NCBI RefSeq assembly: GCF_025685545.1
Contig: NZ_JAGSYC010000020.1
Location: forward strand, 186,001 to 250,000
DNA: 64,000 nucleotides
DNA from: Granulicella paludicola
Lineage (GTDB): Bacteria; Acidobacteriota; Terriglobia; Terriglobales; Acidobacteriaceae
Reading direction: 5' to 3'
The notes under the pieces are model-generated. The model had not been told where the DNA came from. It saw nothing but the letters and a program-made list of their open reading frames with translations, and did not search any database. Position numbers and translations under genes: made by a program. Within the stretch, counting starts at the first letter, position 1. Each line of letters opens with the position of its first letter. Of this stretch, positions 19,632 to 44,548 are shown in pieces.

Positions 19632-19713
19632 GTTCACGCTTAATCGTAGCTGCATATGGCTAGGAAAACGGGGCAGGCCGCAGCCCGCCCCGCGGTGTAT
19701 ATTACGTGCGAAA

Positions 19714-21588
19714 TCAGGGGAGCGGCGTGGTGAGCTCGGGCTTCGGTTCGAAGTAGGTCGCGTGGTCTTCACCGGTGACGGAGAGGTGATCGCCGCCGTT
19801 GAGATCGAAGACGGTGATGTCGTTTTGGCCTGCATGTAGCCAGACGCCGGGGAGATAGAGAGCGCCTGCGGGACCGATGTTCCAGAAGCGACCAAGGAGA
19901 TGGCCGTTGACCCAGAGGACACCTTTGCCGAGTTGCTGCGTGTTGAGGTAGGTGTCGCCGGGGGTGGTGACGTTGAAGTGCGCGGTGTAGAAGCAGGGGC
20001 CTGTGCAGGGCTTCGAGCTGAATTGGCTGGAGGGTGATGGAGACAGGGGCAGCGGAAAGATCTGCCAGTTGTTGAGCACGGTTTTCTGGAAGGTGACATC
20101 GCCGAGAATGCCAGCACGTTCGGTGCGGATGATGGGGTTGAAGTTGATGCGACCGGAGTTTTCAACGAGGATGTCGAGCTGGTGTTTGCCGGTGGTGTCG
20201 ATGGCGAGAGTCTTCTGGCCGAGGCGGCGGTCGACGACGCCGGCGAGTACGCCGTCGAGGTAGATGCGCGCGTAGCTGTGGAGGTCGGTGAAGGCGAGTT
20301 CGCCCTTGCCGGTGGAACTGAGCTTGGTGCGATAGAGGATGTAGCCATAAGGCTGATCGACGTCCTCCATGGTGAGAGGTTTGATGGAATCGATGGCTGC
20401 GGGGAGTGTGTTCCAGAGGGATTGCGATGTGCGGAGTTGGATGGTGGGGAGCGTGATCAGAGGTGGTGAGTCGGGCACGGGGACCGGGGTCTGGTGCGTG
20501 ATCTCTGCTATGAGTGTGCGGAGGCGGAAGTACTTGGGGCGAGGACGGCCGGACTCGTCGAGCGGGGCGTCGTAGTCGTAGCTGGTGACGTCGGGCTGGT
20601 AGCCATCGTGATCGCTGTTGGCACCGTTCATCCAGCCGAAGCTGGTGCCGCCGTGGATCATGTAGAGGCTGATGGAATAGCCCTGCTGGAGCATGGAACG
20701 GATCTCGGCTTCCTGCTTGGCGGCGTCGGTGACCTGATGCTTTTCGCCCCAGTGATCGAACCAGCCGTCCCAGTACTCGGCGACGTAGATGGGCGTGTTG
20801 GGGCGGAAGGTTTTGTAGAGCTTGATGGAGCGCTCGGCATCGCCGGTGCCGAAGTCGATGCCTGCGAGAAGGCCGGGCAGCGTGCCCTGCTTGAGGACGT
20901 CAGCACCATCGCCGGTGTAGAGCAGCGAGGTGGTGAAGCCGGCCTTGAGGATGAGGTCGTGCATCCACTGCATGTAGGTGTGGTCGTCGCCGAAGGAGCC
21001 ATACTCGTTTTCGACCTGCACGGCAAGGATGGGGCCTCCATTGCTGGCCTGGAGTGGTGCGAGTTCCTGGCCGAGGCGCAGCATCCAGCTCGTAGCTGCG
21101 GCTTTGAATTGCGGCTGAAGGCTGCGTAGCTGCATCGTGTGATCTTTGAGGAGCCAGGAGGGATAGCCACCGAGGTCCCACTCCGCGCAGACGTAGGGGC
21201 CGGGGCGAAGGATGACGTAGAGTCCTTCCTGCTGGGCTTCGCGGAGGAACTCAGCGACGTCGTTCTGGCCGGAGAAGTCGTAGACACCGGGGCGAGGTTC
21301 GTGGACGTTCCAGAAGACATAGACGGTGATGGCGTTGAGGCCGAGGGCATGGGCTTTGCGCAGGCGATCGCGCCAGTAGGGGCGAGGGATGCGAGTGTAT
21401 TCGAGCTCGCCGGAGATGAGCTGGAAGGGCTTGCCGCGCAGGGTGAAGTGATCGCCAGCGGTGGCAAGGGGAGTGGGTGCGGGGGGCGTCTGCGCGAAGA
21501 TCGACTGCGCGGCCAAGGTAAAGGACATGGCGATGAGAAGGGCGAGACGTCGGCAGAGCGCGGCTAGGGCGTTGAAACGAATGGGCAT
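19714..21588 (-). CDS. Secreted GH35 beta-galactosidase
   Basis: 624 residues from ATG 21588 (GGAG ten bases upstream); a GTG at 21645 is the alternative. Signal peptide (ends S-I-F-A-Q), then a GH35 (beta/alpha)8 barrel: FWNVHEPRPGVYDF, LRPGPYVCAEWDLGG, acid/base Glu195 in QVENEYGSFG and nucleophile Glu271 in VAEYWDGWFDHWG, followed by C-terminal beta-sandwich domains. It removes terminal beta-linked galactose from oligosaccharides outside the cytoplasm. It is divergent from a TonB-dependent receptor with 210 bases between the starts, a typical enzyme/transporter pairing, and lies at the edge of the GalNAc-type catabolic locus. Confidence 0.9.
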   Translation of the reverse strand: MPIRFNALAALCRRLALLIAMSFTLAAQSIFAQTPPAPTPLATAGDHFTLRGKPFQLISGELEYTRIPRPYWRDRLRKAHALGLNAITVYVFWNVHEPRPGVYDFSGQNDVAEFLREAQQEGLYVILRPGPYVCAEWDLGGYPSWLLKDHTMQLRSLQPQFKAAATSWMLRLGQELAPLQASNGGPILAVQVENEYGSFGDDHTYMQWMHDLILKAGFTTSLLYTGDGADVLKQGTLPGLLAGIDFGTGDAERSIKLYKTFRPNTPIYVAEYWDGWFDHWGEKHQVTDAAKQEAEIRSMLQQGYSISLYMIHGGTSFGWMNGANSDHDGYQPDVTSYDYDAPLDESGRPRPKYFRLRTLIAEITHQTPVPVPDSPPLITLPTIQLRTSQSLWNTLPAAIDSIKPLTMEDVDQPYGYILYRTKLSSTGKGELAFTDLHSYARIYLDGVLAGVVDRRLGQKTLAIDTTGKHQLDILVENSGRINFNPIIRTERAGILGDVTFQKTVLNNWQIFPLPLSPSPSSQFSSKPCTGPCFYTAHFNVTTPGDTYLNTQQLGKGVLWVNGHLLGRFWNIGPAGALYLPGVWLHAGQNDITVFDLNGGDHLSVTGEDHATYFEPKPELTTPLP

Positions 21589-21645
21589 TCTGGGGGCATC
21601 TCCGGGAGTGAAGCGGCTTACGGCAGCTTCGGTCTGGATGTTCAC

Positions 21646-21798
21646 AGGTCAAATAAACATTCCACTGGAGAAAATTCAATTGACTTTAACGTTGAGCATA
21701 ACGTAAACGTTCATATAGAGCTGAAATCGACAAAATATCTGGCGACCACGATGTAAGCGGATACATAGCCTTTCAGCGAACTAAACGGGAGTCGTCCA
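21646..21798. promoter_or_regulatory. Divergent promoter region with AACGT inverted repeats
   Basis: TTGACT (21680-21685) and TTGAGC (21692-21697) are -35-like; TATAGA (21714-21719) is -10-like for the plus strand. AACGTT (21688-21693) and AACGT-AA-ACGTT (21700-21711) form overlapping palindromes that could bind a regulator of the GH35 and receptor genes. Confidence 0.35.
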
Positions 21799-24700
21799 AT
21801 GCACCCCATTAAAAGAATTCTTCTTGGTTTACTTCTCGTTCCGGTTTGTATGTTCGGAACGTCGGCCGCTTACGCACAAATGGATCAAGGAGCAGTGACA
21901 GGCATCGTTCACGACACGCAGAAGGCGGTCGTGGCGGGTGCAACGGTCACGCTTATTGACACGGATACGAACCTCACGCTGACGCGCACGACGGATAAGT
22001 CGGGCGCCTATAACTTTTCGCCGGTGAAGATCGGCAATTACCAACTGACGATCAATGCTCCGGGCTTTGCGCCGCAGATTCAGGACCACATCCACGTCGA
22101 TGTGAGCCAGACGGTCGGCCTGAACCTGACGCTGAAGGCTGGCGGAGCTTCGGACTCGGTGACGGTGGATGCGTCTGCAGAGCTGCAGACCGAGGAGGCT
22201 TCGACGGGCCAGGTGTTTACCAAGGCTGAGCTCGAGAACCTCCCGATTCTGGATCGCAACTATTTGTTTCTCGCGCAGCTGACGACGGGTGTGGCCGCGC
22301 CGAACCAGGGCAACACGCAGACCTCGGGGAAGGGTGGATTTTCGTCGAACGGCAGCCGTGTATCGCAGAACAACTTCATTCTCGATGGTGTCGATAACAA
22401 CTCCAACATGCAGGACTTTCTGAACGGTGCTACGTACGCTGTTGCGCCTCCGCCAGAGGCACTGGAGGAGTTCAAGGTTCAGACCAGCGATTACAGCGCA
22501 GAGCTTGGTCGATCGACCGGCGCTGCTGTCAACGCTTCGATCAAGTCGGGAACGAACAACATCCACGGATCTTTGTGGGAGTTCTATCGTAGCGATCGCC
22601 TGAAGGCGCGCGAGTTCAATTTCAGCTCGACGCCCCAGCCGAAGACTTCTTATCACGAGAACATCTTCGGAGCGACGCTGGGCGGTCCGGTCATCAAGGA
22701 CAAGCTGTTTATCTTTGCCGATGCACAAGGGCAGCGTATCAATATCTACCAGCCCGCACAGACGAACCTGACGGTGCCGACGGCAGCTGTACGTACGGGT
22801 GACTTCTCGCAGTATTTGAACCCTGCGCTGACGAACGGCAATGGCGCCATCACGCTTTATAAGGTTGGCGGCAATGTAACTCCGAGCATAGGTACTGCCG
22901 AGTTGGCAAAGGATCCGACCCGTTACCTTACGTGTGCGGGAAGCACGCCTGTGTATGCCACGGCGATTGCAGGCCAGAACGTTATTTGCCCGGCGAACGT
23001 CAATGCTGTGGCGAAGACGGTGATGAACCTTTTTCCGCTGCCGAACCAGGGTGTGACGGGTCAGGTGGTGCAGAATTACACGGCTCCGGCAACCGCTTCG
23101 CAGAACAACACGACACAGTACGACGTGCGCGTGGATTATAACTTCAGCCCGAAGGACCAGATGTACGGGCGCTATAGCTATAGCAATAACCCATCTGCGT
23201 ACACTCCGCCTCTCGGTGTGCTGGATGGCGGCGGTTACGGCTCGGATGGTCACAACACGAACTACGCGAAGAGCGGTCTGTTCAGCTACACACACTTCTT
23301 CTCTCCGAAGCTTTCGAACGTGTTCCGCGTCGGCTATAACTTCCTCTCGGCTTCGTACCTCCCACAGGGAGCTCAGGTCGACGTGGCAGCTCAATACGGA
23401 CTGGGCGGTATTCCGTTCGGCCCGAACCTCGGCGGCTTTCCCGATCTCGACTTCAATGGCGGTGGATCGAACTTCGGTATCGGTATTCCGGGATACGAGC
23501 CTTCGGCTGAGAAGCAGAACGTGGTCGAGTTCATCGACAACGTGGCGTGGCAGAAGGGCAAGCATGATTTCACGTTCGGTGTGAATATCCAGCACATCCG
23601 TTTCTATGGACTGCAGTCGGCTAATTCGACCGGCTATCAGGGCTTCAAGGGAACGTACACCAGCGATCCCGGCGATCTCTCCGGTGCCGTCACCGGCGCT
23701 GGTCTTGCGGACTTCGCGCTCGATCTGGAGAACTACGCTGGCTTGAACAGCACAACGCCTGTGACGGATCTTCGCTGGTACAACGCCGGCTATATTCAGG
23801 ATGACTGGAAGCTCCGTTCGAACTTCACGCTCAACCTGGGTATTCGCTGGGAGTACACGCAGCCGTTCGTGGAGTTGCACGATCAGCAGGCGAACTTCGT
23901 CGGCAACTTTGCGGGCATGAACCAGGGAAGCGGTACGTTCTACATTCCTCAATCGCAGCAGAACTATCCGATCCCCGCGTTCCTGACGACTGACTTTGCC
24001 AAGGACAACATCGCGATCAAGTACACGTCGAACCGTTCGCTGGTGCATCCGGATTATCACGAGTTCGCACCGCGCATTGGCTTTGCGTATCAGCCAAAGG
24101 CGTCGATGGTGGTTCGCGGAGGCTTCGGCTTCTTCTACGGCGGGCAGGAGAACATCGGGTTGGGTCTGAACCTTTACAACAACCCTCCGTTCTTCCTGAC
24201 GAGCTACATCCAGCCGAATCCGAACCAGTGCTATAACACTGCGACGACGGGGGTTGTCTGCCCGACCAATGGACAGACGCTGGAGACGGGATTCGGAGCG
24301 GCGGCGACGTCGAATGCCGGCCTGGAGGCGAATGCGCAGCTGCCTTCGCTCTACGGTCAGGACATCAACGCGCGCAGCACCTACACCGAGGCCTACAACC
24401 TGAGCGTGCAGCAGACGATCACTCCGACGATTGCATTCACGCTCAGCTACCAGGGCAACATCACTCGTCATATGCGGGTGAGCTACAGCGCGAACCAGTA
24501 TCCGGGTGTGATTCCGCACGATGCTACGCTGAGCTCGCAGTACTATCAGCCGTTCTATGACTTCGGCAACATCGTGCAGGTCATCAACGAAGGCGATGCC
24601 AACTACAACTCACTGCAGGCAAAGCTGGACAAGCGCTTCTCGCATGGTCTGTCGTTCATGACGGGCTACAGCTGGTCGCACAGTCTGGATGATGCAGCGC

Positions 24701-25437
24701 AGCCGATCCAAGGTACGGACGGTGGCGAGGCTGGAAACCCTGCGTTCCTCGGTCTGAAGTTCCAGTACGGTGCGAGCGCGAATGATGTACGCAATCGCTT
24801 CACCTTTGCTCCTCAGTATGAGTTGCCATTTGGCAAGGGCAAGGCGTTCCTGAACCACGGTGGTTTGGTGGATGGTCTGGTAGGTGGTTGGAAGACGTCG
24901 GCTATCTTCCAGGTGCAGACTGGCACACCGATCGCGATCCCGGGAGTCTTCCGCGTTGGCAACCCGTTTACGCCCGGTGGCACGGCAAGTGCTGTCACCC
25001 AGCCGAACGAGACCTGCTCGGCGGTAACCCGTACGATCACGCACTGGTTCAACCCCTGTGCATTCGCACAGGCCCCAACTGCGTACGCTACGCAGGCGGA
25101 TTATCAAGCTGCACTGCAGGCAGGCGGCGCAACCGCCAACGCGGTTCTGTTGGCGAACGCTGGAACGCTTCCCTATGGACAACGCGGCCGTCAGACGGTT
25201 GAGGGTCCTGGTTTCAATCGCCTGGATATGTCGTTGTTCAAGAGCTTTGCGCTGCCGTTCCACAACTCGTCGTTTGAGCTTCGTGCGGATGGCATCAACC
25301 TGATGAACACGCCTTCCTTCGGCGATCCGAGTGGTGGCATCACCGGTGGAAGCGCAGGCCAGATCACGTCCACGCGCTTCAGCTCGGTATTGCCGAACGC
25401 ACGCGTGATTCAGCTAGCGGGTCACCTCTACTTCTAA
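21799..25437 (+). CDS. TonB-dependent receptor with carboxypeptidase-regulatory-like N-terminus
   Basis: 1212 residues from ATG 21799. Signal peptide ending S-A-A-Y-A-Q, carboxypeptidase-regulatory-like domain (GAVTGIVHDTQKAVVAGATV), plug domain with N-N-F-I-L-D-G-V-D-N-N-S-N, and a large barrel ending in L-Y-F. It probably imports oligosaccharides released by the neighbouring secreted glycosidases; the exact ligand is unknown. It is divergent from GH35 and closed by a strong terminator at 25448. Confidence 0.9.
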   Translation: MHPIKRILLGLLLVPVCMFGTSAAYAQMDQGAVTGIVHDTQKAVVAGATVTLIDTDTNLTLTRTTDKSGAYNFSPVKIGNYQLTINAPGFAPQIQDHIHVDVSQTVGLNLTLKAGGASDSVTVDASAELQTEEASTGQVFTKAELENLPILDRNYLFLAQLTTGVAAPNQGNTQTSGKGGFSSNGSRVSQNNFILDGVDNNSNMQDFLNGATYAVAPPPEALEEFKVQTSDYSAELGRSTGAAVNASIKSGTNNIHGSLWEFYRSDRLKAREFNFSSTPQPKTSYHENIFGATLGGPVIKDKLFIFADAQGQRINIYQPAQTNLTVPTAAVRTGDFSQYLNPALTNGNGAITLYKVGGNVTPSIGTAELAKDPTRYLTCAGSTPVYATAIAGQNVICPANVNAVAKTVMNLFPLPNQGVTGQVVQNYTAPATASQNNTTQYDVRVDYNFSPKDQMYGRYSYSNNPSAYTPPLGVLDGGGYGSDGHNTNYAKSGLFSYTHFFSPKLSNVFRVGYNFLSASYLPQGAQVDVAAQYGLGGIPFGPNLGGFPDLDFNGGGSNFGIGIPGYEPSAEKQNVVEFIDNVAWQKGKHDFTFGVNIQHIRFYGLQSANSTGYQGFKGTYTSDPGDLSGAVTGAGLADFALDLENYAGLNSTTPVTDLRWYNAGYIQDDWKLRSNFTLNLGIRWEYTQPFVELHDQQANFVGNFAGMNQGSGTFYIPQSQQNYPIPAFLTTDFAKDNIAIKYTSNRSLVHPDYHEFAPRIGFAYQPKASMVVRGGFGFFYGGQENIGLGLNLYNNPPFFLTSYIQPNPNQCYNTATTGVVCPTNGQTLETGFGAAATSNAGLEANAQLPSLYGQDINARSTYTEAYNLSVQQTITPTIAFTLSYQGNITRHMRVSYSANQYPGVIPHDATLSSQYYQPFYDFGNIVQVINEGDANYNSLQAKLDKRFSHGLSFMTGYSWSHSLDDAAQPIQGTDGGEAGNPAFLGLKFQYGASANDVRNRFTFAPQYELPFGKGKAFLNHGGLVDGLVGGWKTSAIFQVQTGTPIAIPGVFRVGNPFTPGGTASAVTQPNETCSAVTRTITHWFNPCAFAQAPTAYATQADYQAALQAGGATANAVLLANAGTLPYGQRGRQTVEGPGFNRLDMSLFKSFALPFHNSSFELRADGINLMNTPSFGDPSGGITGGSAGQITSTRFSSVLPNARVIQLAGHLYF

Positions 25438-25447
25438 CTCTTAACCG

Positions 25448-25493
25448 AAAGGGCTCCTCTGCGGATGATTGCAGAGGAGCCCTTTTTCTTTTT
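25448..25493 (+). terminator. Rho-independent terminator after TonB-dependent receptor
   Basis: AAAGGGCTCCTCTGC (25448-25462) pairs with GCAGAGGAGCCCTTT (25471-25485), followed by a T-rich run. Confidence 0.92.
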
Positions 25494-25511
25494 GGTGTGA
25501 AGGCTGCTGGC

Positions 25512-26708
25512 TTAGCCGAAGTTGTGGAGGGCTTCGGACAGGGGCATGGGTGTGGCGGCGGTGGTTGCTGTGGGAGCGTTGGGGCTGAGGATCACGGCGA
25601 AGGGGTGATCTTCGATCCAGGCGACGAAGGTGAGTTTGCCCTTCGTGGTGATGCGGTCCATCTCGATCCAGTTGTAGTAGGCGCCCATCTCGGCGTCGCG
25701 AAAGGCTCCTTGCGCGTCGAGGGTGGGGGTTGTGGTGGTGACGAGTTCGTTGAGATCGTGGTAGGCCTGGCGGGGAGTGTAGCGCAGCAGAAGAGTTTGT
25801 GGCTGTGCGCGGCGAGCGAGTTCGCGGCCTGTCCACTGGACAAAGCTGGTGCTAAAGATTTGTGGGCCGGAGCTCTGGGTGAAGAGCTCGGTGTAGAAGC
25901 GCTGGAGTATGGGGTCTGGGGTGATGTCCGCTGCGGCGACGTCCTGCTGTGAGGTGCTGGTGAGGTTTGTGCGCATGGCTTCGGCTCCGCCGCTGCCGCT
26001 GGTGATGGTGGACTGCATGCGCTGCAGAACGCGTTCGCGAAGGGGAGAGAGGCCGGGGTAGCTGATTGCTATGGCGTGCAGCAGGCTGTTGGTTAGTTCT
26101 GGTAAAGGTGGGCCGCCGTCGATGTACCAGCTTGCATAGGGAGCGTCGGTGGCGCGCTGTTGGAGGGTGCTCCGAATGTCCAGCCAAGCTGTCTCGTGCT
26201 TGAGGGCGGTGAGGGTGATGCCGTTTCGAGCCAGCTTGCGGAGCGCTTTGCGCGGATCGATGGTGGCGTCTTTGCCGAGCACGACAAAGACGGTTCGATG
26301 GGTCGTGGTTTCGCGCGGTGGGACGGCGGCGAAGAGAGAGGTCGCTGCAGCGCGGAACAGATTGAGTTGTCCGCTCGACCAGAGATGTGCGGTCAGTTCG
26401 GTGATGAAAGCGGCGGGGTCATTGACCCAGTCCATGGATTGAAGAGCAGGGGTGAGCGCGAGCGTGGACAGTGGCGCGGTGAGCTGCTTGTATTTCTCTG
26501 CGGGAAGAGCCTGGAGGGCGGTGCATTGCCAGCGCAGCGCCTCCTGTTCGGCGGGGAAGCTGGTGTGCAGGTTCTGGATCTGTTGGAGGAATGAGGGGCA
26601 GACGGCGAGCGGGAGTCGTTGGAGTAGAACGAGGTGCTCAATGGCGAAGGCGCGGGCGGGCGCGGAGTAGCTGACGAAGGAAGCGGGTGTGAGTTGCGCC
26701 GGGGTCAT
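25512..26708 (-). CDS. Uncharacterised protein paired with Tat-exported phosphatase-fold protein
   Basis: 398 residues, not recognised. Its ATG overlaps the stop of the upstream gene (ATGA, 26705-26708), so the two are translationally coupled. No signal peptide or membrane span is evident. The middle has a V-F-V-V-L-G-K-D-A strand-like stretch and the C-terminal third is threonine-rich (ELVTTTTPTLDAQ) with a W-I-E-M-D-R segment. It may be a cytoplasmic partner of the 26705-27880 product, or an exported protein lacking a classical signal. Domain assignment needs a profile search. Confidence 0.75.
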   Translation of the reverse strand: MTPAQLTPASFVSYSAPARAFAIEHLVLLQRLPLAVCPSFLQQIQNLHTSFPAEQEALRWQCTALQALPAEKYKQLTAPLSTLALTPALQSMDWVNDPAAFITELTAHLWSSGQLNLFRAAATSLFAAVPPRETTTHRTVFVVLGKDATIDPRKALRKLARNGITLTALKHETAWLDIRSTLQQRATDAPYASWYIDGGPPLPELTNSLLHAIAISYPGLSPLRERVLQRMQSTITSGSGGAEAMRTNLTSTSQQDVAAADITPDPILQRFYTELFTQSSGPQIFSTSFVQWTGRELARRAQPQTLLLRYTPRQAYHDLNELVTTTTPTLDAQGAFRDAEMGAYYNWIEMDRITTKGKLTFVAWIEDHPFAVILSPNAPTATTAATPMPLSEALHNFG

Positions 26709-27880
26709 AGGAGCTCCCGGATGGGCTTGCCGCTGGAGTTAGTGGAGAAGCCTAAGACGCTGCCGATGGTGGGAACGAGGTCGATCGATTGGATGGGGCG
26801 ATCGACGATGGTGTTCTGGCGCAGGTGAGGACCGAGAGCAAGCATCCAGGTGGTGCGGGCCATGGCTCCGCCGGTGCGATGGTGCTGGAAGCCGTTGCCG
26901 CCAGGGTCGGTGTCGCCGTCGCGGCCGAAGTCGGGGAGGATGTAGAGCGTGGTGCGGTCTTTGTATTCGGGATCCGTCTGCACCATGCTCCAGAGCTCGG
27001 CGCAGAGGCGGTCGGCGCGCTGGATAGCGTCGATATAGAGCGAGTAAGCGCCGGAGTGCGCGATGTCCATGTCATGCAGCGTGAGCATCATGAGCGAAGG
27101 CGCGTGCTGTTTCATGAGCTGCTTCGTGATGAAGATGGAGAGCTCGTCGGCGCTGTCGAGGCTGCGAGCGTGCTGCAAGAATTCGTCGACGGAGAGTTTG
27201 AGTGTGGAGGAGAGTGTGTCGAGGTGCAGCTCGTGATCGATGCTGGTCTGGAGCGGCTGGTAGAGCGGCATCTCGTAGCTGTCCTGCAGCAGGTATGAGA
27301 GTCGATCGGCGTCGAGTGATTTGCTGTTGTGCAAGGCGGCGGCGAGCAGGCGCTTGGGCAGGATGACACCGGCTCCGTAGTCTGGACCAAAGCTGGAGTG
27401 GCTGCTGCTGCCGATCCGCTGGAAGCCATTGCTGGGAGCGATGACCCAGGCGTCGGAGGCGGGGCGGCGCAGGCCCTTGCGGTAGTACTCGAAGAGTGTG
27501 GGATTAGGTGGAGGCTGGGCGATGAAGTTATCGAAGCGCTCGTAGCTGCCGGTGACGATGCTGGCGGTGGCGACGTAGTGGCCGAGGATGCCGGCGTTGA
27601 CGACGTGGCTGAAGAAGGTGCCTTGCGGCAGAAGGGTGTGGAGCAGGTTGGGGATGTTTTCCTGTCCATCTTTGGCGAAGGTTTCCTCGTCGCGCGCGCC
27701 GCCGCCGAAGGTGACGACGATGGTCTTCTGTGTGGGACGAAGGACGGAGGCTGTCTGTGAGGCGAGAGCTGCGCTGCTGATGGAGGCTGCGGAGAGAGTC
27801 CCAATGGCTCCGCGCAGAAAGTCGCGGCGTGTGGCCGAGATCGTCTGCGCGGAGGATGGGTACAGCAGGTTGCGTCTCAT
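26705..27880 (-). CDS. Tat-exported alkaline-phosphatase-superfamily (DUF1501-like) protein
   Basis: 391 residues. A Tat motif (SATRRDFLRGAIGTL) is followed by a hydrophobic region and A-L-A-S. The body has features of the sulfatase/phosphatase fold: IVVTFGGGARDEETFA at the first strand, LMMLTLHDMDIAHSG, and a late ILPDFGRDGD plus FQHHRTGG metal-site-like segment. It may act on a decorated sugar (sulfate, phosphate or phosphoglycerol), but that is inference. It is followed in the same direction by the unknown 25512 gene and preceded by GH20 (nine bases away), so GH20-phosphatase-unknown is probably one operon. Confidence 0.7.
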   Translation of the reverse strand: MRRNLLYPSSAQTISATRRDFLRGAIGTLSAASISSAALASQTASVLRPTQKTIVVTFGGGARDEETFAKDGQENIPNLLHTLLPQGTFFSHVVNAGILGHYVATASIVTGSYERFDNFIAQPPPNPTLFEYYRKGLRRPASDAWVIAPSNGFQRIGSSSHSSFGPDYGAGVILPKRLLAAALHNSKSLDADRLSYLLQDSYEMPLYQPLQTSIDHELHLDTLSSTLKLSVDEFLQHARSLDSADELSIFITKQLMKQHAPSLMMLTLHDMDIAHSGAYSLYIDAIQRADRLCAELWSMVQTDPEYKDRTTLYILPDFGRDGDTDPGGNGFQHHRTGGAMARTTWMLALGPHLRQNTIVDRPIQSIDLVPTIGSVLGFSTNSSGKPIRELL

Positions 27881-27889
27881 CTATGTTAG

Positions 27890-29941: not shown

Positions 29942-30051
29942 GAGGTGACGCCTCTCGTTGCAAATAGGAGCCGGATGAAATGGCGCCGTAATCATCACAT
30001 GTTAGTTCATTTCGTAGGTAAATGGTCACTTTTGCTGAATAGAACAGACGC

Positions 30052-31026: not shown

Positions 31027-31135
31027 TCGAAACCTTTCGTCGTTTATGCTTTCCTTGAGGTAGTATATTGGTTATTATTGTTTATCTTTAGTTTCGATAT
31101 AACGAATTGAGATTATTTTTCTTTACGAGGAGCCG
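31027..31135. promoter_or_regulatory. Divergent promoter between sugar kinase and agaS
   Basis: The 109-base AT-rich region holds a minus-strand -10-like TATACT (complement of 31062-31067) and GAGGAG before agaS. CTTTCGT (31034-31040) and GCTTTCC (31048-31054) recur, with different spacing, at 33633-33650 upstream of the DeoR gene. TTTCG also occurs at 30010-30014, 31093-31097 and 36623-36627. These may be sites for the AgaR-like regulator. Confidence 0.4.
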
Positions 31136-32326: not shown

Positions 32327-32333
32327 GGCTGCT

Positions 32334-33608: not shown

Positions 33609-33712
33609 GCGAGATGCAGTGTAGATGTTTTTCTTTCGAATGGGCTTTCCAATTGCGTTTAAGAAAGTAGCGATGTACTCTTCGTGGAGTCAGACAGCTC
33701 GTTTGAATCCCT

Positions 33713-34543: not shown

Positions 34544-34548
34544 CAGCG

Positions 34549-36552: not shown

Positions 36553-36739
36553 AGCGGCCTCCAAAAATGAGATGGTAAAGCTGTGAAGATAATAAAACGT
36601 AATATATGGAAATGTATCAGTATTTCGTTTTACAATTCTCTTCAACAGCAGGCACTTCGTACCTTCAAGCCGGATTCTAGACGCTCGAGAACGGAATTAC
36701 GATGCCTAGTGGGCCGATGATATGCGGCAGGAGACGGGA
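36553..36739. promoter_or_regulatory. Divergent promoter region, GH-D glycosidase / amidohydrolase
   Basis: AT-rich stretch with TATTTCGTTTTAC (36621-36633), similar to TTTCG-containing motifs upstream of other transcription units of this locus. GGAG at 36729-36732 precedes the ATG at 36740. Confidence 0.35.
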
Positions 36740-37810
36740 ATGGCGGATCAGCAGGATCAGGACAAGTTCATCGCAATGGTTTCAGCGAAGGCTGAGGTGA
36801 CGCTGCCGCTCAGCTCGTTCACTCCACGCAGCATGTTGCACACACGGCAGACCGAGGTGCTGGTGCCGCGATTCCCGGTTATCGATTATCACAATCACCT
36901 CGATGCACAGGACCCGCACGAGGTTTTGAAGATCATGGATGCGTGCGGCATCGAGCATGTGGTCAACATCACGATGAAGGTGGGCGACGAAGCGGTCGAG
37001 ATGATTCGGCGCTATCGCGCGGCCGATGCGAAGCGGTTCTCTACGATTGGCTGGATGGATTGGACAGGAGCGGACGCTCCCGACTTCGATGGATTCGTTG
37101 CGCTGAGTCTCGAGCGGATTGAGCGGCTGGTGGCAGAAGGAATCGTCGGCTTCAAGTTCTGGAAGGACCTTGGACTGGTGGTACGCGATGCGAGCGGCGA
37201 GTTGATCCGCGTGGATGATGCGCGGCTTGCACCGATCTTCGAGCGGCTTGGTGAACTGAAGATGCCGGTGATGGTACACATCGGAGATCCCGAGGCGTTC
37301 TTCCTGCCGATCGATGCGAACAATGAGCGGTATGAGGAGCTGGCGGCGCATCCTGACTGGGGATTCTATGGAGCGCAGTACAGCAAGGATGAGTTGCTGA
37401 AGCAGCGGGATCGAGTCTTCAAGAGGCATCCGAACACAACCTTTGTCGGGGCGCACATCGCGGAGAACAGCGAAGACTTGCAGCGGGTTTCAGCGATGAT
37501 GGATGACTGCCCGAATGTGATGGTGGATATCAGCGCGCGCGCTTCGGAGCTTGGGCGTCAGCCGTATGCTGCACGCAAGTTTTTCCTGCGCTTTGCAGAT
37601 CGCATTCTGTTCGGCGCGGACCTGGTGCCAGAGATCAAGATGTATCGGCTCTACTATCGCTTTCTCGAGACGGCGGATGAGTACTTCGAATATCCGACGC
37701 ATGCCTCGGGGCAGGGGCGATGGAATATTTACGGCATCGATCTGCCGGAGGACGTGTTGCGCAAGGTGTATCGCGAGAACGCGCTGCGCCTGCTGCCACA
37801 CCTGAGCTAG
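36740..37810 (+). CDS. Amidohydrolase-family (amidohydrolase_2) protein
   Basis: 356 residues from ATG 36740 (GGAG seven bases upstream). A TIM-barrel amidohydrolase with the first-strand motif VIDYHNHLD (His51, His53), MPVMVHIGDP, TFVGAHIAEN and RILFGADLVPE providing the further His and Asp ligands expected of the metal site. No signal peptide, so it is cytoplasmic. Family members hydrolyse C-N or C-O bonds or decarboxylate. In this locus it could be an N-acetylgalactosamine(-6-phosphate) deacetylase replacing AgaA, or a lactonase; neither is proven. It precedes the sugar porter by 49 bases and is probably co-transcribed with it. Confidence 0.82.
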   Translation: MADQQDQDKFIAMVSAKAEVTLPLSSFTPRSMLHTRQTEVLVPRFPVIDYHNHLDAQDPHEVLKIMDACGIEHVVNITMKVGDEAVEMIRRYRAADAKRFSTIGWMDWTGADAPDFDGFVALSLERIERLVAEGIVGFKFWKDLGLVVRDASGELIRVDDARLAPIFERLGELKMPVMVHIGDPEAFFLPIDANNERYEELAAHPDWGFYGAQYSKDELLKQRDRVFKRHPNTTFVGAHIAENSEDLQRVSAMMDDCPNVMVDISARASELGRQPYAARKFFLRFADRILFGADLVPEIKMYRLYYRFLETADEYFEYPTHASGQGRWNIYGIDLPEDVLRKVYRENALRLLPHLS

Positions 37811-37859
37811 ACAGGGACTGCATGGCGGTTCGCGCCGCCGGAAGACGAGGCTGCGAACG

Positions 37860-39659
37860 ATGACGAGTGAAGCGAAAGCTGTTATGCCGGGAGCCGCCGA
37901 CCTGCGGCGCTATAACCTTCTGCTGTTGTATGTGGCGGGGCTTGGTGGCCTGCTGTATGGCGTTGATATTGGCATCATCGGTGGCGCTCTGCCGTATCTG
38001 CAGGCTACGTCGAAGCTGAGTGTCAGCCAACTCTCCTCGATTGTTGCGGCGGTGCTACTGGGAAGCGTTATCTCTACGATCTTTGCCGGGTTGCTGGCGG
38101 ATTGGATCGGACGCAAGCCATTGATGGTGATCAGCGGACTGATCTTCGTGCTGAGCATCCCGCTCATAGCTTTGTCGGCTGGCTATGGAACTTTGATTGT
38201 CGGGCGGCTGCTGCAGGGTGTCAGCGGTGGCTTTATCGGGGTGGTGGTGCCGCTGTATCTGGCGGAGTGTCTGCCGTCTTCGAACCGGGGCAAGGGCACG
38301 GGGATCTTTCAATGGATGCTGACGTTTGGGATTGTGGCAGCGGCGCTCATCGGGATGTATTACAGCTATCGCGTGCAGGCCGTCGCTGTGAGCGGCGACG
38401 TGGCTCAGCTCTTTCATGTGAAGGATCAGGCATGGCGCCACATCTTCTGGATCTCTCTGCCTCCGGGAATTCTGTTTGCAATTGGCAGCCTGTTTGTGGC
38501 GGAGTCTCCGCGCTGGCTCTATCGCAAGGGGCGCGGCGAGCAGGCGCTTGCATCGCTGCGGCGGTCGCGGACTGCAGCGAAGGCAGAGCTTGAGTTTTTA
38601 GAGATGGGTGCGGTCTCTCTGCAGAGCGAGACGACGCAGAAGATTTCCGGTTCGCTGCTGCAGCGAAAGTATGTGGTGCCCTTTGTGCTGGCCTGTGTGA
38701 TTCTCTTCTGCAATACGGCGACGGGAGTGAACTCGATCATTGGTTACAACACCAGCATCCTGTTGCAGAGTGGACTCTCTGATCTTGCCGCGCACTGGGG
38801 CTATGTCCTCTTCACATCGGTCAATTTTCTGATGACGATGATTGGCATGACGCTGGTGGACCGCAAGGGGCGGCGTTTTCTGCTGATCCTCGGCAGCACG
38901 GGCATCATGATCTCGCTGCTGGTGGTGGGAGCGTTGTTTTGGAGCACGGAGAGAGCTGACCTGGAGTGCCAGCGCGCTGTGCAATCGCTTGTGGGGCCAT
39001 CGCAGGAGCTTACGCTTTCTTTCAACAAGGACGAGGCCGAGCGGCTTCTTTCTGCGAGTGGTGGCAACAGCGACAACTCGCTGGCGTCTCAAGCTTCGCT
39101 GGTGGTCATCTATTCGTATGGTGGCTTTACGGGGGCGACAAACTTTGTGCGATCGGACGATCCCGCCGCGGCGCCAATTCACATCACGCGGGAGGATACG
39201 GTTCCTGGCAACGCGATTGAGGCGTTGTTCAAGAATCCGTTTGCTGATTTGAAGGCAGCGAGAACGGCTCCGCTAAAGATTGAGCGGGCGCGTATCGGCC
39301 GCATCCCCAGCGCGACGCATGGCAAGCTGGTGGCTCTTGCTCTCTTCTCGTTTATCGCGTTCTTCGCTTTGGGTCCCGGTGTCTGCGTATGGCTCGCGCT
39401 GTCCGAGTTGATGCCGACGCGCATTCGGTCGGTGGGCATGAGCATCGCCCTGGTGATCAATCAACTGGTGTCCACGACATTGGCTGTCCTGTTTCTGCCG
39501 ATCGTCAGCAAGTATGGGTACGCGCAGATGTTCCTGCTGTTTGCGGGCTTCACGCTGATCTATTTTGTGACGGCTACTTTCTTTCTGCCTGAGACCAAGG
39601 GCAAGACGTTGGAAGAGGTAGAGCTGCATTTCGAGGGCAAGGCCGCACTCACTGACTAA
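37860..39659 (+). CDS. Sugar-porter MFS transporter with large periplasmic insertion
   Basis: 599 residues, longer than the usual 450-500 of the family. Sugar-porter signatures: LYGVDIGIIGGALPY in TM1, DWIGRKPL in loop 2-3, VAESPRWLYRKGR after TM6, DRKGRR in loop 8-9, LPETKGKTLEEVE after TM12. Between TM9 and TM10 (about residues 363-480) lies an extra hydrophilic segment beginning ERADLECQRAVQSL and containing repeated acidic stretches. It should bring a monosaccharide released by the glycosidases into the cytoplasm. The insertion is expected on the periplasmic side. Confidence 0.85.
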   Translation: MTSEAKAVMPGAADLRRYNLLLLYVAGLGGLLYGVDIGIIGGALPYLQATSKLSVSQLSSIVAAVLLGSVISTIFAGLLADWIGRKPLMVISGLIFVLSIPLIALSAGYGTLIVGRLLQGVSGGFIGVVVPLYLAECLPSSNRGKGTGIFQWMLTFGIVAAALIGMYYSYRVQAVAVSGDVAQLFHVKDQAWRHIFWISLPPGILFAIGSLFVAESPRWLYRKGRGEQALASLRRSRTAAKAELEFLEMGAVSLQSETTQKISGSLLQRKYVVPFVLACVILFCNTATGVNSIIGYNTSILLQSGLSDLAAHWGYVLFTSVNFLMTMIGMTLVDRKGRRFLLILGSTGIMISLLVVGALFWSTERADLECQRAVQSLVGPSQELTLSFNKDEAERLLSASGGNSDNSLASQASLVVIYSYGGFTGATNFVRSDDPAAAPIHITREDTVPGNAIEALFKNPFADLKAARTAPLKIERARIGRIPSATHGKLVALALFSFIAFFALGPGVCVWLALSELMPTRIRSVGMSIALVINQLVSTTLAVLFLPIVSKYGYAQMFLLFAGFTLIYFVTATFFLPETKGKTLEEVELHFEGKAALTD

Positions 39660-39975
39660 GCTTTATCGGTTTGGGGCTAAGTCGTAAGAACCACACATTC
39701 GTTCGCGCTCCTGCTTCCGACAGGAGGGTGGAGGCGGCGCGTGTGCGGCGCGATAGCGGCAAAAGTGGATCCACGCCACAAAAGCGGTGCAAATGTTACG
39801 AAACTTTCCCTTAGCTTTCATTTCTTCTTGACAAACTGTCCGGGCACGTCTAATGTCCACTAATAAGTCACTAAGAGTAAGTAATCGTAATAAAAAGATA
39901 TGCAGGTCGCATGTTCTTCCCATCTTTCCTGATTTGGATAGATACCTGCACACATTCAAACGGAGGAAGTACCCG
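39660..39975 (+). promoter_or_regulatory. Promoter and leader of the third TonB-dependent receptor
   Basis: 316 bases without a gene. TTGACA (39828-39833), 17 bases, then TAATGT (39851-39856) make a sigma-70-like promoter. A leader helix TGCAGGT (39901-39907) / ACCTGCA (39944-39950) is possible. GGAGG at 39962-39966 precedes ATG 39976. TTACGAAACT (39797-39806) is a minus-strand TTTCGTAA similar to motifs elsewhere in the locus. Confidence 0.5.
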
Positions 39976-42900
39976 ATGACAGCCAAGTTTGCGAAGTCTG
40001 CTGGCCACGCTCACACCAGTTCCTCCAGGAGCGTACGACGCACCTGGGGGTCACCTTGTCTCTTCGTACTTGCGGGACTGTTGTCAGTCTTTTGCTTCAC
40101 TCGGTCCTCGTTTGCCCAAGGGACGGAAGGCAACATCACAGGTACTGTAACGGCTGCCGATGGCGGGCTGGTGCCGAAGGCTACGGTGACCGTGACGAAT
40201 GAGGGAACGCATTTCTCGCGTACTGTTGTTTCGGATGCGAGCGGCAACTATATGGTGACCGCCCTGAATCCTGGCAACTACACAGTGAAGATCGATGCCG
40301 ACGGTTTTTCTGAGCTGCAGAACAAAGCGATTGCCTTGTCGGCGCAGCAGACGGTGCGTATCGATGCTCATCTAAAGATCTCGGGTGTAAGCTCGACGGT
40401 CACCGTGATGGCGGACACGTCGGTGCTGAACCTGGAGATGCCTTCGATCTCGAGCACGGTGACGGCCGAGCAGCTCAACGATACGTCGTCGAACCTGCTC
40501 GGCACATCAGACAGCACGGGCGATAGTGGCCTGCTGTTCTACACGACGCTGCTGCCGGGTGGTTCGCAGGCAGGCACGCTGTTTGACTGGTCGATGTATG
40601 GATCGCGCGGCAACGAGGCGTATTACAACGTCGATGGCATCAGCTCGAACTCTGCACTTTATGGCAACATGGTTGGCCCCTCGCTACCACCGTTTGGCAT
40701 GGTGCAGGAGGTTCAGTACACGGCTGTGAACAACAAGGCGGAACTAGGCCAGTTGTTCAACATCAGCATGATCACCAAATCGGGCACGAACAGCTACCAC
40801 GGCGATGTCTTCGAGAATTACGGTGCCGATGTGTTGCAGGCGCCCGGCTATTTTGCCAAGGGTAAGGTCGGCAGCTACAACCAGAATGATTTCGGTGCGG
40901 ATGTAGGCGGTCCGATTCTCAAGGACAAGCTCTTCTTCTATGCTTCGTCCGAGCTGTTGCGTGAGGACACGCCGATTACGCTGACGCCTTCGCTGCCGAC
41001 GGCTGCGTTTGAATCGGGCGACTTCAGTGCGCTTTCAACGCCGATCACGAATCCGTATGCGGGTGGAGCTCCGTTTGCGTATGGCGGAAAGTACAACCAG
41101 ATTGATCCGTCGCTGATCAGTCCAGCTGCAAAATATTGGCAGAGCCTTTTCTATCCCAGCTCTATTGTTGGGCAGAGCACCCTCGGACCCTACGCGCAGA
41201 ACGTATATACCAACCGCTTCTATGGCCGAGTGGATTACTCGCTCTCAAAGAACAACACTCTGTTTGCGCGCGTTGGATACATTCGTTCCTCGCCGGAATC
41301 GCTGGATAGCGGATTACCTCCTTCAATCACTGGCTACCGTGTGCAGAAGCGCCACACGTGGCAGGGCGTGATGGAAGATACCTGGATACTGTCTCCGCAT
41401 ATCGTCAACGTCGCGAAGTTCGGACTAACGCACACGGAGAACCACTATGGTGGTGCAATCGAAGGACAGCCTCTTGTGAATGCCCTTGGCATCACGGGCT
41501 TTCCGGTGGTTGCGAACAGCTTTACAGGTATTCCTTCGCTGGGTATCTCCGGCTACACGTCGCCGTATCAGTTGCCGGAGAGCCAGCCCACGGAAGAGAC
41601 CTTCCAGTACATCGACCAGATCACCTATGAGCGCGGCAAGCACTCGTTCAAGGCGGGTGTGGAGTATCGACCGATGGAAGCCGACAGCTACTTCAACCCG
41701 ACGTTCGGCAGCTTCTCTTTCACAAACCAGTACACCGGCAATGCCTACGCAGATTTCCTTCTCGGCATTCCTGATAGCACCAGCTACACGTATGCTCGCA
41801 GCCCGGAGTATGCGCGCCTCTGGTATGTGAACACGTTCTTGCAGGATGACTGGAAGGTACTGAAGAACCTGACGCTGAACCTTGGCGTGCGCTACGAGTA
41901 CGACAGCCCTGCGGTGGACAAGAAGAACATCGTCGCCTCGTTCGATCCGTACCGTGGAGCGATCGTCGTGCCGAACCTACAGATTGCGGCTGCCAATATC
42001 AACTCGGTTTTCCCGTCTCAGATTCCTATTGAGACTGCGCAGTCGGTTGGTCTGCCTGGCCGTTCGCTGCGTAACGGCTACAAGCTTGCCGTCGATCCGC
42101 GTTTCGGCTTTGCGTATCGCCCGTTCAACAATGACCGCACTGTTATTCGCGGCGGTTATGGCATCTTCAACGACGAGGTCAGCGCTGCTCTGTTTGGCTA
42201 CAACTACGCGGGTCCGTTTGGTGTGAACGTCGCTTATAGCAACAGCTTTGTGAACAACCAGCCTACGGTCACGTTCCAGAGCCCCTTCAACACCTCGGCG
42301 CAGGGCAGCCTGCTGGGTAACATCAGCGATTCGGCAACCGACCCCAACTTCCGCAATCCTTATGTGCAGCAGTTCAACCTTACGGTGGAAGAGAATGTCG
42401 GTTTTGAAACCGACCTCCGTCTTTCTTACATCGGCACACGTGGAGTGAAGCTGCCGTATGCCAACAACATTGACCAGAGTCCTCTGGGCACTGTATTCAA
42501 CCAGCCGACCAGCAATTATCCGGACTTCTACTCGGTGTACTTCTTCCGCAACGGCGGGTATGAAAACTACAACGCCTTCTCGGGTGAGTTGAGCCGGACC
42601 TTCCGCCATGGGCTGAGCTATGACGTTTCACTGACCTGGGCGAAGAACTTGACCGATGATGACGACACCGTTGCCAACGGCATCGACGGCGGTGTGACGG
42701 CTGAGCAGAGCTTCAACCTCTCGCGAGAGAAGGGCAACGCACGCTACACTCCGCGTCTCGACTTCACTTCCAACGTGGTGTACGAGCTACCGATCGGCAA
42801 GGGTGGCTACTTCCTGAACAATGACGGCTATGCCTCGCGCTTCCTGGGCGGATGGAAGTTGAGCGGAGCGTTCCTCTCTGTGACGGGTGACTACCTGACT

Positions 42901-43335
42901 CCGACGTTCGATGGCCTCAGCACTTCGAATACGAGCCCTGTGTACGGCACCAACACGCCGAACCGAGTGCTGAAGTCGCTGGCACCCATCGGGAAGAAGT
43001 CGATCTCGAATTGGTTCAATCCTGCTGCCTTCGCCATTCCGGCACAAGGCACCTTCGGTTCGGGATCCTTTGGAACGATTGAAGGTCCTAGCTCGAACAC
43101 CCTAAACCTGGCTCTGTTCAAGTCTTTCCCGGTGTATCGCGAATCGCACGTAGAACTGCGTGGCAGCTTTACCAACGTTCTGAACCATCCGAACTTTGGT
43201 GATCCGCTGGTCGACCTGTCGGTTTCGCCGACCAACACGTTCCCAGGCCAGGGCGTAGGTCAGATCAACGGAACCACGGGCCGCAGCTTCGCTGGACCGC
43301 GTTCCGGCCTGCTGAGCGCACGGTTCATCTTCTAA
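39976..43335 (+). CDS. TonB-dependent receptor with carboxypeptidase-regulatory-like N-terminus
   Basis: 1119 residues from ATG 39976 (GGAGG nine bases upstream; the frame upstream to 39853 lies in the leader). A long, basic N-terminus leads to a hydrophobic signal ending S-S-F-A-Q. Then come a carboxypeptidase-regulatory-like domain (GNITGTVTAADGGLVPKATV), a plug with Y-Y-N-V-D-G-I-S-S-N, and a barrel ending F-I-F. It sits between the sugar porter and the spherulin-4 lipoprotein, 41 bases before the latter. Uptake of the oligosaccharides produced by that lipoprotein is the likely role. Confidence 0.9.
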   Translation: MTAKFAKSAGHAHTSSSRSVRRTWGSPCLFVLAGLLSVFCFTRSSFAQGTEGNITGTVTAADGGLVPKATVTVTNEGTHFSRTVVSDASGNYMVTALNPGNYTVKIDADGFSELQNKAIALSAQQTVRIDAHLKISGVSSTVTVMADTSVLNLEMPSISSTVTAEQLNDTSSNLLGTSDSTGDSGLLFYTTLLPGGSQAGTLFDWSMYGSRGNEAYYNVDGISSNSALYGNMVGPSLPPFGMVQEVQYTAVNNKAELGQLFNISMITKSGTNSYHGDVFENYGADVLQAPGYFAKGKVGSYNQNDFGADVGGPILKDKLFFYASSELLREDTPITLTPSLPTAAFESGDFSALSTPITNPYAGGAPFAYGGKYNQIDPSLISPAAKYWQSLFYPSSIVGQSTLGPYAQNVYTNRFYGRVDYSLSKNNTLFARVGYIRSSPESLDSGLPPSITGYRVQKRHTWQGVMEDTWILSPHIVNVAKFGLTHTENHYGGAIEGQPLVNALGITGFPVVANSFTGIPSLGISGYTSPYQLPESQPTEETFQYIDQITYERGKHSFKAGVEYRPMEADSYFNPTFGSFSFTNQYTGNAYADFLLGIPDSTSYTYARSPEYARLWYVNTFLQDDWKVLKNLTLNLGVRYEYDSPAVDKKNIVASFDPYRGAIVVPNLQIAAANINSVFPSQIPIETAQSVGLPGRSLRNGYKLAVDPRFGFAYRPFNNDRTVIRGGYGIFNDEVSAALFGYNYAGPFGVNVAYSNSFVNNQPTVTFQSPFNTSAQGSLLGNISDSATDPNFRNPYVQQFNLTVEENVGFETDLRLSYIGTRGVKLPYANNIDQSPLGTVFNQPTSNYPDFYSVYFFRNGGYENYNAFSGELSRTFRHGLSYDVSLTWAKNLTDDDDTVANGIDGGVTAEQSFNLSREKGNARYTPRLDFTSNVVYELPIGKGGYFLNNDGYASRFLGGWKLSGAFLSVTGDYLTPTFDGLSTSNTSPVYGTNTPNRVLKSLAPIGKKSISNWFNPAAFAIPAQGTFGSGSFGTIEGPSSNTLNLALFKSFPVYRESHVELRGSFTNVLNHPNFGDPLVDLSVSPTNTFPGQGVGQINGTTGRSFAGPRSGLLSARFIF

Positions 43336-43376
43336 GCGGCAAAACAAACGATCTTTCAACTTCTCAGGAGACTGAA

Positions 43377-44231
43377 ATGAAGACTCAAGCTATTGCCGCA
43401 GCTGTCGCTATGTCGGGCCTGTTGGCACTTGTTGGATGTACAGGAGTGTCGGAGTTCGGGGGAAAGACCTCGACGACCGGAACCACGACCTCGAACGCAA
43501 CTGGCTCCACGTGTCAGTCCATCGCGATACCAACATATATCTATCCGTCGTACCTCGGTTCGGGATGGAATGTAGGGATCAGCGACTCACCATGGAACAA
43601 AGATACGAAACGCATCTTTATCATGAACCCCGGTAGCGGGCCAGGTACGGCCGCGAACTCGGACTACCAGAACATCGTGACGAAGGTGCATAACGCTGGC
43701 GGCCTCGTGTACGGCTACGTTTACACTAACTACGGCGCGGTATCGCTGGCTTCGGCCGAGACGCAGGCCACGGAGTACAAGACCTGGTACAACGTGGACG
43801 GCATCTTTGTGGACGCCGCGTCGTCTGACCCCGCGCTGGTGAGCACGTACTACCAGCCGTTCGCCAACTACATCACTACGCAGACACCAACCAACGGTGT
43901 GATGCTGAATGCTGGGGACTATCCGGATCCGAGCTATGCGAAGATCACTGTGCCTACGACTTCGGCTCTTACGATTGTGACGTATGAAGGGGACTACACC
44001 GATTACCTGACGACCGTGGTGCCTGCCTGGGCGAATACTTACCCGGCATCGATGTTCGTTCATCTCGTTTACAACGTTCCAGCGGCGAACCTTGCCAATG
44101 TGCTTACGCTTTCGGCACAACGCAATGTGGGCAACATCTTCGTGACGGATCAGGCGCTGCCGAATCCTTATGGGGCACTGCCTTCGTACTGGGCCCAACT
44201 GGTCGCGCAGACACAGGCGGCCTGCAAGTAA
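43377..44231 (+). CDS. Spherulin-4 family (GH135-type) lipoprotein
   Basis: 284 residues. The N-terminus is a lipoprotein signal (L-A-L-V-G-C, Cys21), then a Ser/Thr-rich linker and a spherulin-4 barrel: IAIPTYIYPSYLGSGWN, IMNPGSGPGTAANSDYQ, GGLVYGYVYTNYGAVS, WYNVDGIFVDAASSD, IVTYEGDYTDY. In the family, represented by fungal Sph3, the enzyme cuts alpha-1,4-linked GalNAc polymers such as galactosaminogalactan, and a D-E pair after the G-I-F strand is functionally important. Here the Asp is kept but the next residue is Ala; the later Glu in V-T-Y-E-G is kept. It is probably exposed on a membrane surface. The activity may be altered, but context strongly suggests GalNAc glycan processing. Confidence 0.8.
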   Translation: MKTQAIAAAVAMSGLLALVGCTGVSEFGGKTSTTGTTTSNATGSTCQSIAIPTYIYPSYLGSGWNVGISDSPWNKDTKRIFIMNPGSGPGTAANSDYQNIVTKVHNAGGLVYGYVYTNYGAVSLASAETQATEYKTWYNVDGIFVDAASSDPALVSTYYQPFANYITTQTPTNGVMLNAGDYPDPSYAKITVPTTSALTIVTYEGDYTDYLTTVVPAWANTYPASMFVHLVYNVPAANLANVLTLSAQRNVGNIFVTDQALPNPYGALPSYWAQLVAQTQAACK

Positions 44232-44245
44232 TTGCATCCGGCGGA

Positions 44246-44534: not shown

Positions 44535-44548
44535 AGGAGGTTGCCAGG

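Follow-up and report, generated by a model that had tools for sequence, protein, structure and literature searches.

The catabolism of N-acetylgalactosamine (GalNAc) and galactosamine by the Aga pathway is known from Shewanella with a kinase and a permease outside the phosphotransferase system (PTS) (PMC12118421), and AgaS together with AgaA has been used as the signature of this pathway (PMC12118421, PMC5583593). Here we describe a comparable locus in Granulicella paludicola (Acidobacteriota), within a window of 64,000 nucleotides (contig NZ_JAGSYC010000020.1, positions 186,001 to 250,000 of the forward strand; positions below are counted from the first letter of this stretch). The locus appears to scavenge glycans of GalNAc or galactosamine and to be built on a conserved acidobacterial core, a reading whose chances we place somewhat above even. 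Its features are as follows.

19714 to 21645, minus strand: GH35 beta-galactosidase (PF01301, E 6e-117), accessory
21799 to 25437, plus strand: TonB-dependent receptor 1, TBDR1 (PF25183, E 3e-215), possibly linked to the core
27890 to 29998, minus strand: GH20 beta-hexosaminidase (PF00728, E 4e-98), accessory
30052 to 31026, minus strand: PfkB-family sugar kinase, proposed GalNAc or galactosamine kinase (PF00294, E 2e-49), core
31136 to 32326, plus strand: AgaS-type SIS deaminase/isomerase (agaS_fam, E 2e-85; PDB 3odp, E 3e-51), core
32334 to 33608, plus strand: KbaZ/GatZ-type protein, proposed tagatose-6-phosphate 4-epimerase (agaZ_gatZ, 603 bits), core
33713 to 34543, plus strand: AgaR-type DeoR-family repressor (NCBIfam AgaR, 271.9 bits), core
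34549 to 36552, minus strand: secreted clan GH-D-like glycosidase without Pfam family (predicted structure resembling GH36/GH27), core
36589 to 36636, no strand: proposed AgaR operator, a pair of inverted 17-base sites between the GH-D and amidohydrolase genes
36722 to 37810, plus strand: PF04909 amidohydrolase (E 1e-26), possible deacetylase of GalNAc or GalNAc-6-phosphate, core
37860 to 39659, plus strand: sugar-porter transporter of the major facilitator superfamily, Sugar_tr (PF00083, E 1.5e-86; TIGR00879 over cut-off)
39853 to 43335, plus strand: TonB-dependent receptor 2, TBDR2 (PF25183, E 8e-194)
43377 to 44231, plus strand: spherulin-4 (Sph4, GH135-like) lipoprotein (PF12138, E 4.5e-36)

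Pfam and NCBIfam confirmed every gene that the original prediction had listed here. It had spoken of several GH-D enzymes, whereas the window holds a single GH-D protein, and it had overlooked the PF04909 amidohydrolase.

In the Shewanella-type pathway an outer-membrane receptor, a permease and a kinase replace the PTS and are followed by AgaS (PMC12118421), and the window resembles it in this respect. However, the kinase of the window is of the PfkB family, its cluster carries a PF04909 amidohydrolase and no AgaA/NagA gene, KbaZ stands without an aldolase, and a GH-D glycosidase and spherulin-4 are attached. The KbaZ/GatZ subunit is shared with the tagatose-bisphosphate aldolases KbaYZ and GatYZ, whereas KbaY/GatY (PF01116) is missing from the genome, which fits the 4-epimerase role reported for GatZ/KbaZ (PMC11907403). 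The Sph4 protein shares the PF12138 domain and an Asp/Glu pair with Sph3, the GH135 enzyme of galactosaminogalactan synthesis in Aspergillus; unlike Sph3, it is a putative enzyme, has Ala after the Asp and is set among receptor and sugar catabolism genes. The GH-D protein resembles GH36/GH27 alpha-galactosidases and alpha-N-acetylgalactosaminidases in its predicted fold and at two invariant Asp positions, but the aligned identity is 10 to 12%, and neither the protein nor any of its 44 homologues matched a Pfam family at E 0.01. Characterised GH135 enzymes are reported to be fungal, and these galactosaminidase families to consist mostly of bacterial members (PMC12054363). Among the papers found in the open library on galactosaminogalactan or GH135 together with Acidobacteri, none has a title that points to such a catabolic locus. 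Both receptors are of the OMP_b-brl_4/CarboxypepD_reg TonB type (Pfam), and no SusD family was found among the Pfam-scanned open reading frames (ORFs) between 19.7 and 44.2 kb, in which the locus departs from polysaccharide utilisation loci of the Bacteroidetes type.

KbaZ (PF08013) was found in 14 of 61 relative genomes, the own genome included, and its 20-kb neighbourhoods in 12 of the 13 others (the partial match of G008 was left out) were queried with 18 window proteins. AgaS was present in 10 of these 12 loci, PfkB and AgaR in 9 each, the amidohydrolase in 8, GH-D in 7 and the porter in 4; GH20, GH35 and Sph4 occurred in none. A second set comprised the loci of the best 80 of 468 GH-D relatives, which were collected by a GTDB scan with a GH-D alignment and two peptide patterns and which were, by title, mostly from Acidobacteriota, besides Rhodanobacteraceae, Gemmatimonadetes and a single Planctomycetota record. 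With a minimum coverage of one half, the amidohydrolase was the most frequent core partner (31 of 80), followed by AgaR (27), AgaS (26), PfkB (24), KbaZ (12) and the porter (12), with GH35 in 7, GH20 in 5 and Sph4 in 0; since many contigs are short, these counts are lower bounds. The two sets overlap and have at least four contigs in common (L021/L048, L022/L049, L030/L054, L023/L082). The core is more than a chance arrangement, because its genes recur around GH-D homologues and control neighbours from the window were matched in 0 or 1 of the 80 loci (Tex 0, PMT 0, Crp 0, LysR 1); among the 12 KbaZ loci, two also gave a LysR match, with 27-30% identity. The core consists of the PfkB kinase, AgaS, KbaZ, AgaR, the secreted GH-D glycosidase and the PF04909 amidohydrolase. 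GH20, GH35 and spherulin-4 are accessories outside of it. In L064, L068 and L107, GH20 is again found next to KbaZ and GH-D. A copy of TBDR2 with 75% identity adjoins the core in L022, and the matches to TBDR1 in relatives reach only some 24-34% identity.

The link between Sph4 and this core was followed through all relatives that carry it. The window protein (125 bits with PF12138, cut-off 30.2) matched the Sph3 structures 5d6t and 5c5g in the PDB search (E 2.6e-5 and 2.8e-5), has a lipobox-like LVGC and an intact open frame, and its gene lies on the strand of TBDR2, 41 bases behind it. Matches were obtained in 4 of 399 genomes of the class and in 12 of 398 genomes of the family, 11 of the latter over the cut-off; the match of G036, a broken fragment, did not reach the cut-off and was excluded. 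The neighbourhoods of all other Sph4 matches were fetched, several from short contigs, and in 4 of the 11 family loci (own genome, G324, G619, G546) KbaZ was in the same stretch. In G324 (L140), which belongs to another genus, PfkB, AgaR, the amidohydrolase, Sph4, the porter, GH-D, KbaZ and AgaS form one module, and Sph4 comes after the amidohydrolase, enclosed by the full module. Sph4 is accompanied by the amidohydrolase, AgaR, KbaZ, PfkB and a TonB receptor in G619 (L155), by KbaZ, PfkB and a receptor in G546 (L159), and in G628 (L154) by a GH-D homologue (41%) that lies at the end of its contig. The stretch of G036 and the class-level locus of G338 (L142) contain no core gene. If random placement is assumed, with the KbaZ rate of the 61 relatives, stretches of 20 kb and genomes of 4.2 Mb, 3 of 10 loci, the own locus being left out, correspond to a tail probability of 1.6e-7; leaving out one of the loci of G619 and G546 as well, as these two are of the same genus and not independent, gives 2 of 9 loci and 4e-5. 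Co-occurrence of Sph4 with agaS/kbaZ in relatives, which the original prediction had set as a test of itself, was thus observed, with AgaS present in L140 as well, and this test speaks for no refutation of the link.

In a MAFFT alignment of 12 acidobacterial Sph4 homologues (the 11 of the family and that of G338) with a Sph3 fragment, the catalytic Asp was kept in all 12; it corresponds to Asp146 of the window protein, whose Glu204 aligned with the Sph3 Glu. The phmmer alignment put the catalytic Glu of Sph3 elsewhere. The catalytic Asp of Sph3, which we take to be Asp166, fits the 56-residue spacing. The Asp/Glu pair of Sph3 is described as nucleophile and acid/base and is printed as Asp196/Glu222 (PMC12054363). 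The window protein is a putative endo-alpha-1,4-GalNAc hydrolase.

The GH-D gene lies in an ORF at 34549-36645 on the minus strand, in which 36552, the first ATG before a signal-peptide-like start, is the probable start. No sequence match to the Melibiase-type Pfam families was found, which puts the protein outside GH27/GH36 proper, and the profile match to GH36 6lcj reached only E 0.004. In its predicted model (predicted local distance difference test, pLDDT, 87.7), the protein has a GH27/GH36-like catalytic barrel and hence the clan GH-D fold; the structural matches are GH36/GH27 enzymes and the best Foldseek match is a galactosaminidase. A substrate specificity for GalNAc is proposed. An ORF on the plus strand at 34630-36366 was dropped as a shadow of this gene.

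Concerning the sugar phosphates, AgaS scored 287 bits in its NCBIfam family (cut-off 529) and PfkB passed no NCBIfam equivalog cut-off. KbaZ passed that of agaZ_gatZ (569 bits) and matched the Pfam GatZ_KbaZ-like family at E 1e-185; its longest ORF is 32268-33608 and its probable start follows just after the end of AgaS. The class II aldolase family PF01116 had no match in the own genome, as opposed to matches in 11 of 14 control genomes, which leaves KbaZ without a KbaY partner. Eleven of 16 genomes with KbaZ had no PF01116 match (two of these are less than 90% complete), and in the other 5 the match was far from KbaZ or on another contig. In E. coli, loss of gatZ is reported to abolish tagatose formation from fructose-6-phosphate, and gatZ or kbaZ together with a phosphatase gene to restore it; GatZ/KbaZ are considered to support the conversion between fructose-6-phosphate and tagatose-6-phosphate, the residue assignments in that paper being predictions (PMC11907403). 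By this analogy AgaS and KbaZ of the window probably yield fructose-6-phosphate, with KbaZ as 4-epimerase. The motifs C46, E70, D113, H114, E195, H282 and K304 of the longest KbaZ ORF fit the proposed GatZ residues by spacing only, as the comparison was made without an aligned GatZ sequence. The tagatose-6-phosphate route of the original prediction has to be revised: it is probably not a tagatose-bisphosphate route, since the genome has no PF01116 aldolase.

The AgaS-bearing clusters of six Rhodanobacteraceae (Dyella L111, L117, L122 and L125, Rhodanobacter L123, Fulvimonas L124) carry the same GH-D and amidohydrolase genes with a second PfkB kinase and a class I aldolase, and no KbaZ. The window PfkB scored 172 bits with the first kinase and 35 bits with the second. 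The second kinase of L125 passed a hexose-kinase subfamily cut-off (280 bits vs 216), and the aldolase of L117 reached 233 bits with class I fructose-bisphosphate aldolase (cut-off 277). The simplest reading is that KbaZ replaces the second kinase and the aldolase. AgaS itself is replaced by a SIS gene in L023 (6167-7213, plus strand) and L071 (12981-14009, minus strand), both of which score best, below the cut-off, with the amino-sugar-phosphate deaminase GlmD (glucosamine-6-phosphate deaminase).

The regulator passed the NCBIfam AgaR cut-off of 260 bits. A position model built from 13 sites in the GH-D/amidohydrolase regions of relatives scored highest in the window at 36589-36636, where the two sites reached 25.1 and 25.0 against 11.7 for the next; the top score per shuffle, in 20 block shuffles, was 14.1 on average and 24.3 in one of them. 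As the model was trained on orthologous regions, the matches in the window are expected by homology, and the pair is a putative AgaR operator. Outside of the training regions, similar sites were found before TBDR2 in L051 (21.5) and in the gap between GH-D and porter in L140 (16.8). In L155, L159 and L154, no site above 12.4 was among the best six of each.

Gene identities, core conservation, recurrent Sph4 linkage, the lack of a class II aldolase and the GH-D fold are computed results. We infer from them all substrates and the following steps, except the deaminase and epimerase steps, which are taken over from characterised families. The Sph4 lipoprotein would cut an alpha-1,4-GalNAc-type polymer outside the cell, and a TonB receptor would import the oligosaccharides. 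GalNAc would be released by the secreted GH-D glycosidase, which GH20 and GH35 would assist on mixed chains. The sugar porter may then bring GalNAc in, PfkB may phosphorylate it, and the PF04909 amidohydrolase or the NagA of the genome may remove the acetate. AgaS would convert galactosamine-6-phosphate to tagatose-6-phosphate and ammonia, and KbaZ, without KbaY, would convert tagatose-6-phosphate to fructose-6-phosphate, an unusual way for these sugars to reach central metabolism. AgaR would repress the cluster.

A number of results, collected in this and the next two paragraphs, weigh against the GalNAc reading. No operator-like site was found before TBDR2/sph4 in the window. Two aldolase-family genes of the class I type (PF01791) lie elsewhere in the own genome. 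The second kinase of L125 stayed below the cut-off with both lacC (154) and 1-phosphofructokinase (263), the latter giving the higher score, and the mutual exclusion of KbaZ (13 loci) and the second kinase plus aldolase (6) among 37 loci gave a Fisher p of 0.07 and is confounded by phylogeny. NagA was over the cut-off in the own genome (contig C23, the window being on C24) and likewise in all 18 other genomes tested, which carry KbaZ or GH-D/AgaS clusters; since NagA is present, the amidohydrolase is not needed as a deacetylase. E. coli NagA is reported to substitute for AgaA (PMC12118421). No AgaA/NagA-type deacetylase was recognised in the cluster, where the PF04909 amidohydrolase could perform the deacetylation; an argument for this role from the absence of NagA was rejected. 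Against solved structures the amidohydrolase gave a best phmmer E of 0.057 and no profile match at E 0.01. The best matches of its model (pLDDT 68) were uncharacterised amidohydrolases and ACMSD, with NagA 1ymy at rank 45 (E 7e-4), and no function follows from these structural relatives.

As to GH-D, template modelling (TM) scores were higher for the GH36 alpha-galactosidases than for the galactosaminidase, and the 50 entries of the VIA table do not include the latter. The core might instead serve alpha-galactosides, GH-D freeing galactose, PfkB and AgaS acting on galactose or tagatose phosphates, KbaZ leading to fructose-6-phosphate and Sph4 supplying something else. We regard this as improbable. 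The predominance of GH36/GH27 alpha-galactosidases among the structural matches, Melibiase-domain genes near the module in L022, L030, L029 and L155, and GH35 in the window agree with it; the AgaR-type regulator, the conserved amidohydrolase, the GlmD-like genes in place of AgaS in some relatives and the galactosaminidase as best Foldseek match speak against it.

The remaining points concern Sph4. Among the 11 family stretches with Sph4, 6 (G657, G297, G452, G621, G473, G679) contain no core gene, and core carriers almost always lack Sph4 (found in 0 of 80 GH-D loci; intact among 61 close relatives in the own genome only); Sph4 is therefore an add-on, an occasional front end and not a core member. 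Directly behind the catalytic Asp stands Ala in the window copy alone; 10 of the 12 homologues have Glu there and 1 has Gln. The absence of Sph4 from core carriers and this Ala, together with GH20 in the window and a GH109-type gene adjoining the module in L019, would suit a core whose GalNAc sources are O-glycans, glycoproteins or bacterial surface polysaccharides and in which Sph4 is a decaying or re-purposed passenger. To this we give a small chance, as the linkage recurs in other genera (L140, L155, L159), the Asp/Glu pair, lipobox and frame are intact, and sph4 closely follows TBDR2. Finally, Sph4 loci might make or remodel a polymer, as Sph3 does in Aspergillus, and not degrade one. Sph3 sits in a biosynthetic cluster and some actinobacterial operons are reported to pair spherulin-4 with the deacetylase gene agd3 (PMC7229062), and a PMT-type glycosyltransferase gene (Pfam) lies downstream of sph4 at 44549-46189. 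In the window, however, sph4 comes after a TonB receptor and shares its stretch with sugar-phosphate catabolic genes, and nothing like agd3 or pel was recognised in the scanned proteins, no search aimed at these genes having been made; we consider a biosynthetic role very improbable.

With the catabolic reading of GalNAc glycans, the prediction of a locus for a GalNAc/galactosamine polymer was borne out in part: the Sph4-KbaZ linkage and the best Foldseek match of GH-D agree with it; against it, or modifying it, are the place of Sph4, GH20 and GH35 outside the core, the single GH-D enzyme and the probable lack of a tagatose-bisphosphate route. No computed result separates galactosaminogalactan from Pel or from other alpha-GalNAc glycans. 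Fungi and bacteria produce galactosaminogalactan and Pel as biofilm polymers. A dedicated soil system for polymers of this type, with a GH135 endo-enzyme at the surface, GH-D as a new family of exo-alpha-N-acetylgalactosaminidases, PF04909 as a new deacetylase of GalNAc or GalNAc-6-phosphate and KbaZ as terminal 4-epimerase, is a tentative and rather doubtful extension; if true, amino-galactose would enter glycolysis as fructose-6-phosphate without tagatose-bisphosphate. Wild-type Verticillium dahliae was reported to raise Acidobacteriota, Planctomycetota and Gemmatimonadota in rhizosphere soil compared with the control and with a glycosyltransferase mutant of the galactosaminogalactan cluster, for which its authors suggest a physical platform and not feeding (PMC13245733). 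The link to Acidobacteriota is a correlation only; feeding by way of such a locus would be an alternative to the platform that can be tested. In addition, the cluster reveals a group of glycosidases that is widespread and unrecognised by Pfam, provides a clear setting where KbaZ must act without its supposed aldolase partner, and places the rare spherulin-4, known for cutting a fungal biofilm sugar, in or beside such clusters in several related bacteria.

Some observations concern the surroundings. Beside GH20, at 25512-27880 on the minus strand, two genes with a 4-base overlap encode proteins of 398 and 391 aa (the latter with a twin-arginine-like start), which had no Pfam, NCBIfam or significant PDB match and occurred in 0 of the 12 KbaZ and 0 of the 80 GH-D loci. 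On the 3' side of sph4, 44549-47085 holds the PMT_2-type glycosyltransferase and a cNMP-binding regulator on the opposite strand; both are absent from the 80 GH-D loci. A scan of 30000-44700 gave fewer sites than shuffles (promoters 2 vs 5.3, terminators 10 vs 12.9), and a hairpin visible 3' of sph4 was not listed by the terminator scan. On C23 of the own genome (L134, 7240-15061), a GH20 gene, NagA and a single frame of 1457 aa with SSF transporter, beta-lactamase and NamZ domains look like cell-wall sugar recycling. The GH109-type gene of L019, a genus relative, lies at 18701-20000 on the plus strand, about 3 kb from the module, and belongs to a family with alpha-N-acetylgalactosaminidases. 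A longer spherulin-4 type (about 415 aa) stands beside a conserved GHL10-like protein (about 635 aa) in L154, L155, L158 and L159, with TonB-type receptors nearby and, in L158 and L159, a twin-arginine protein of about 520 aa.

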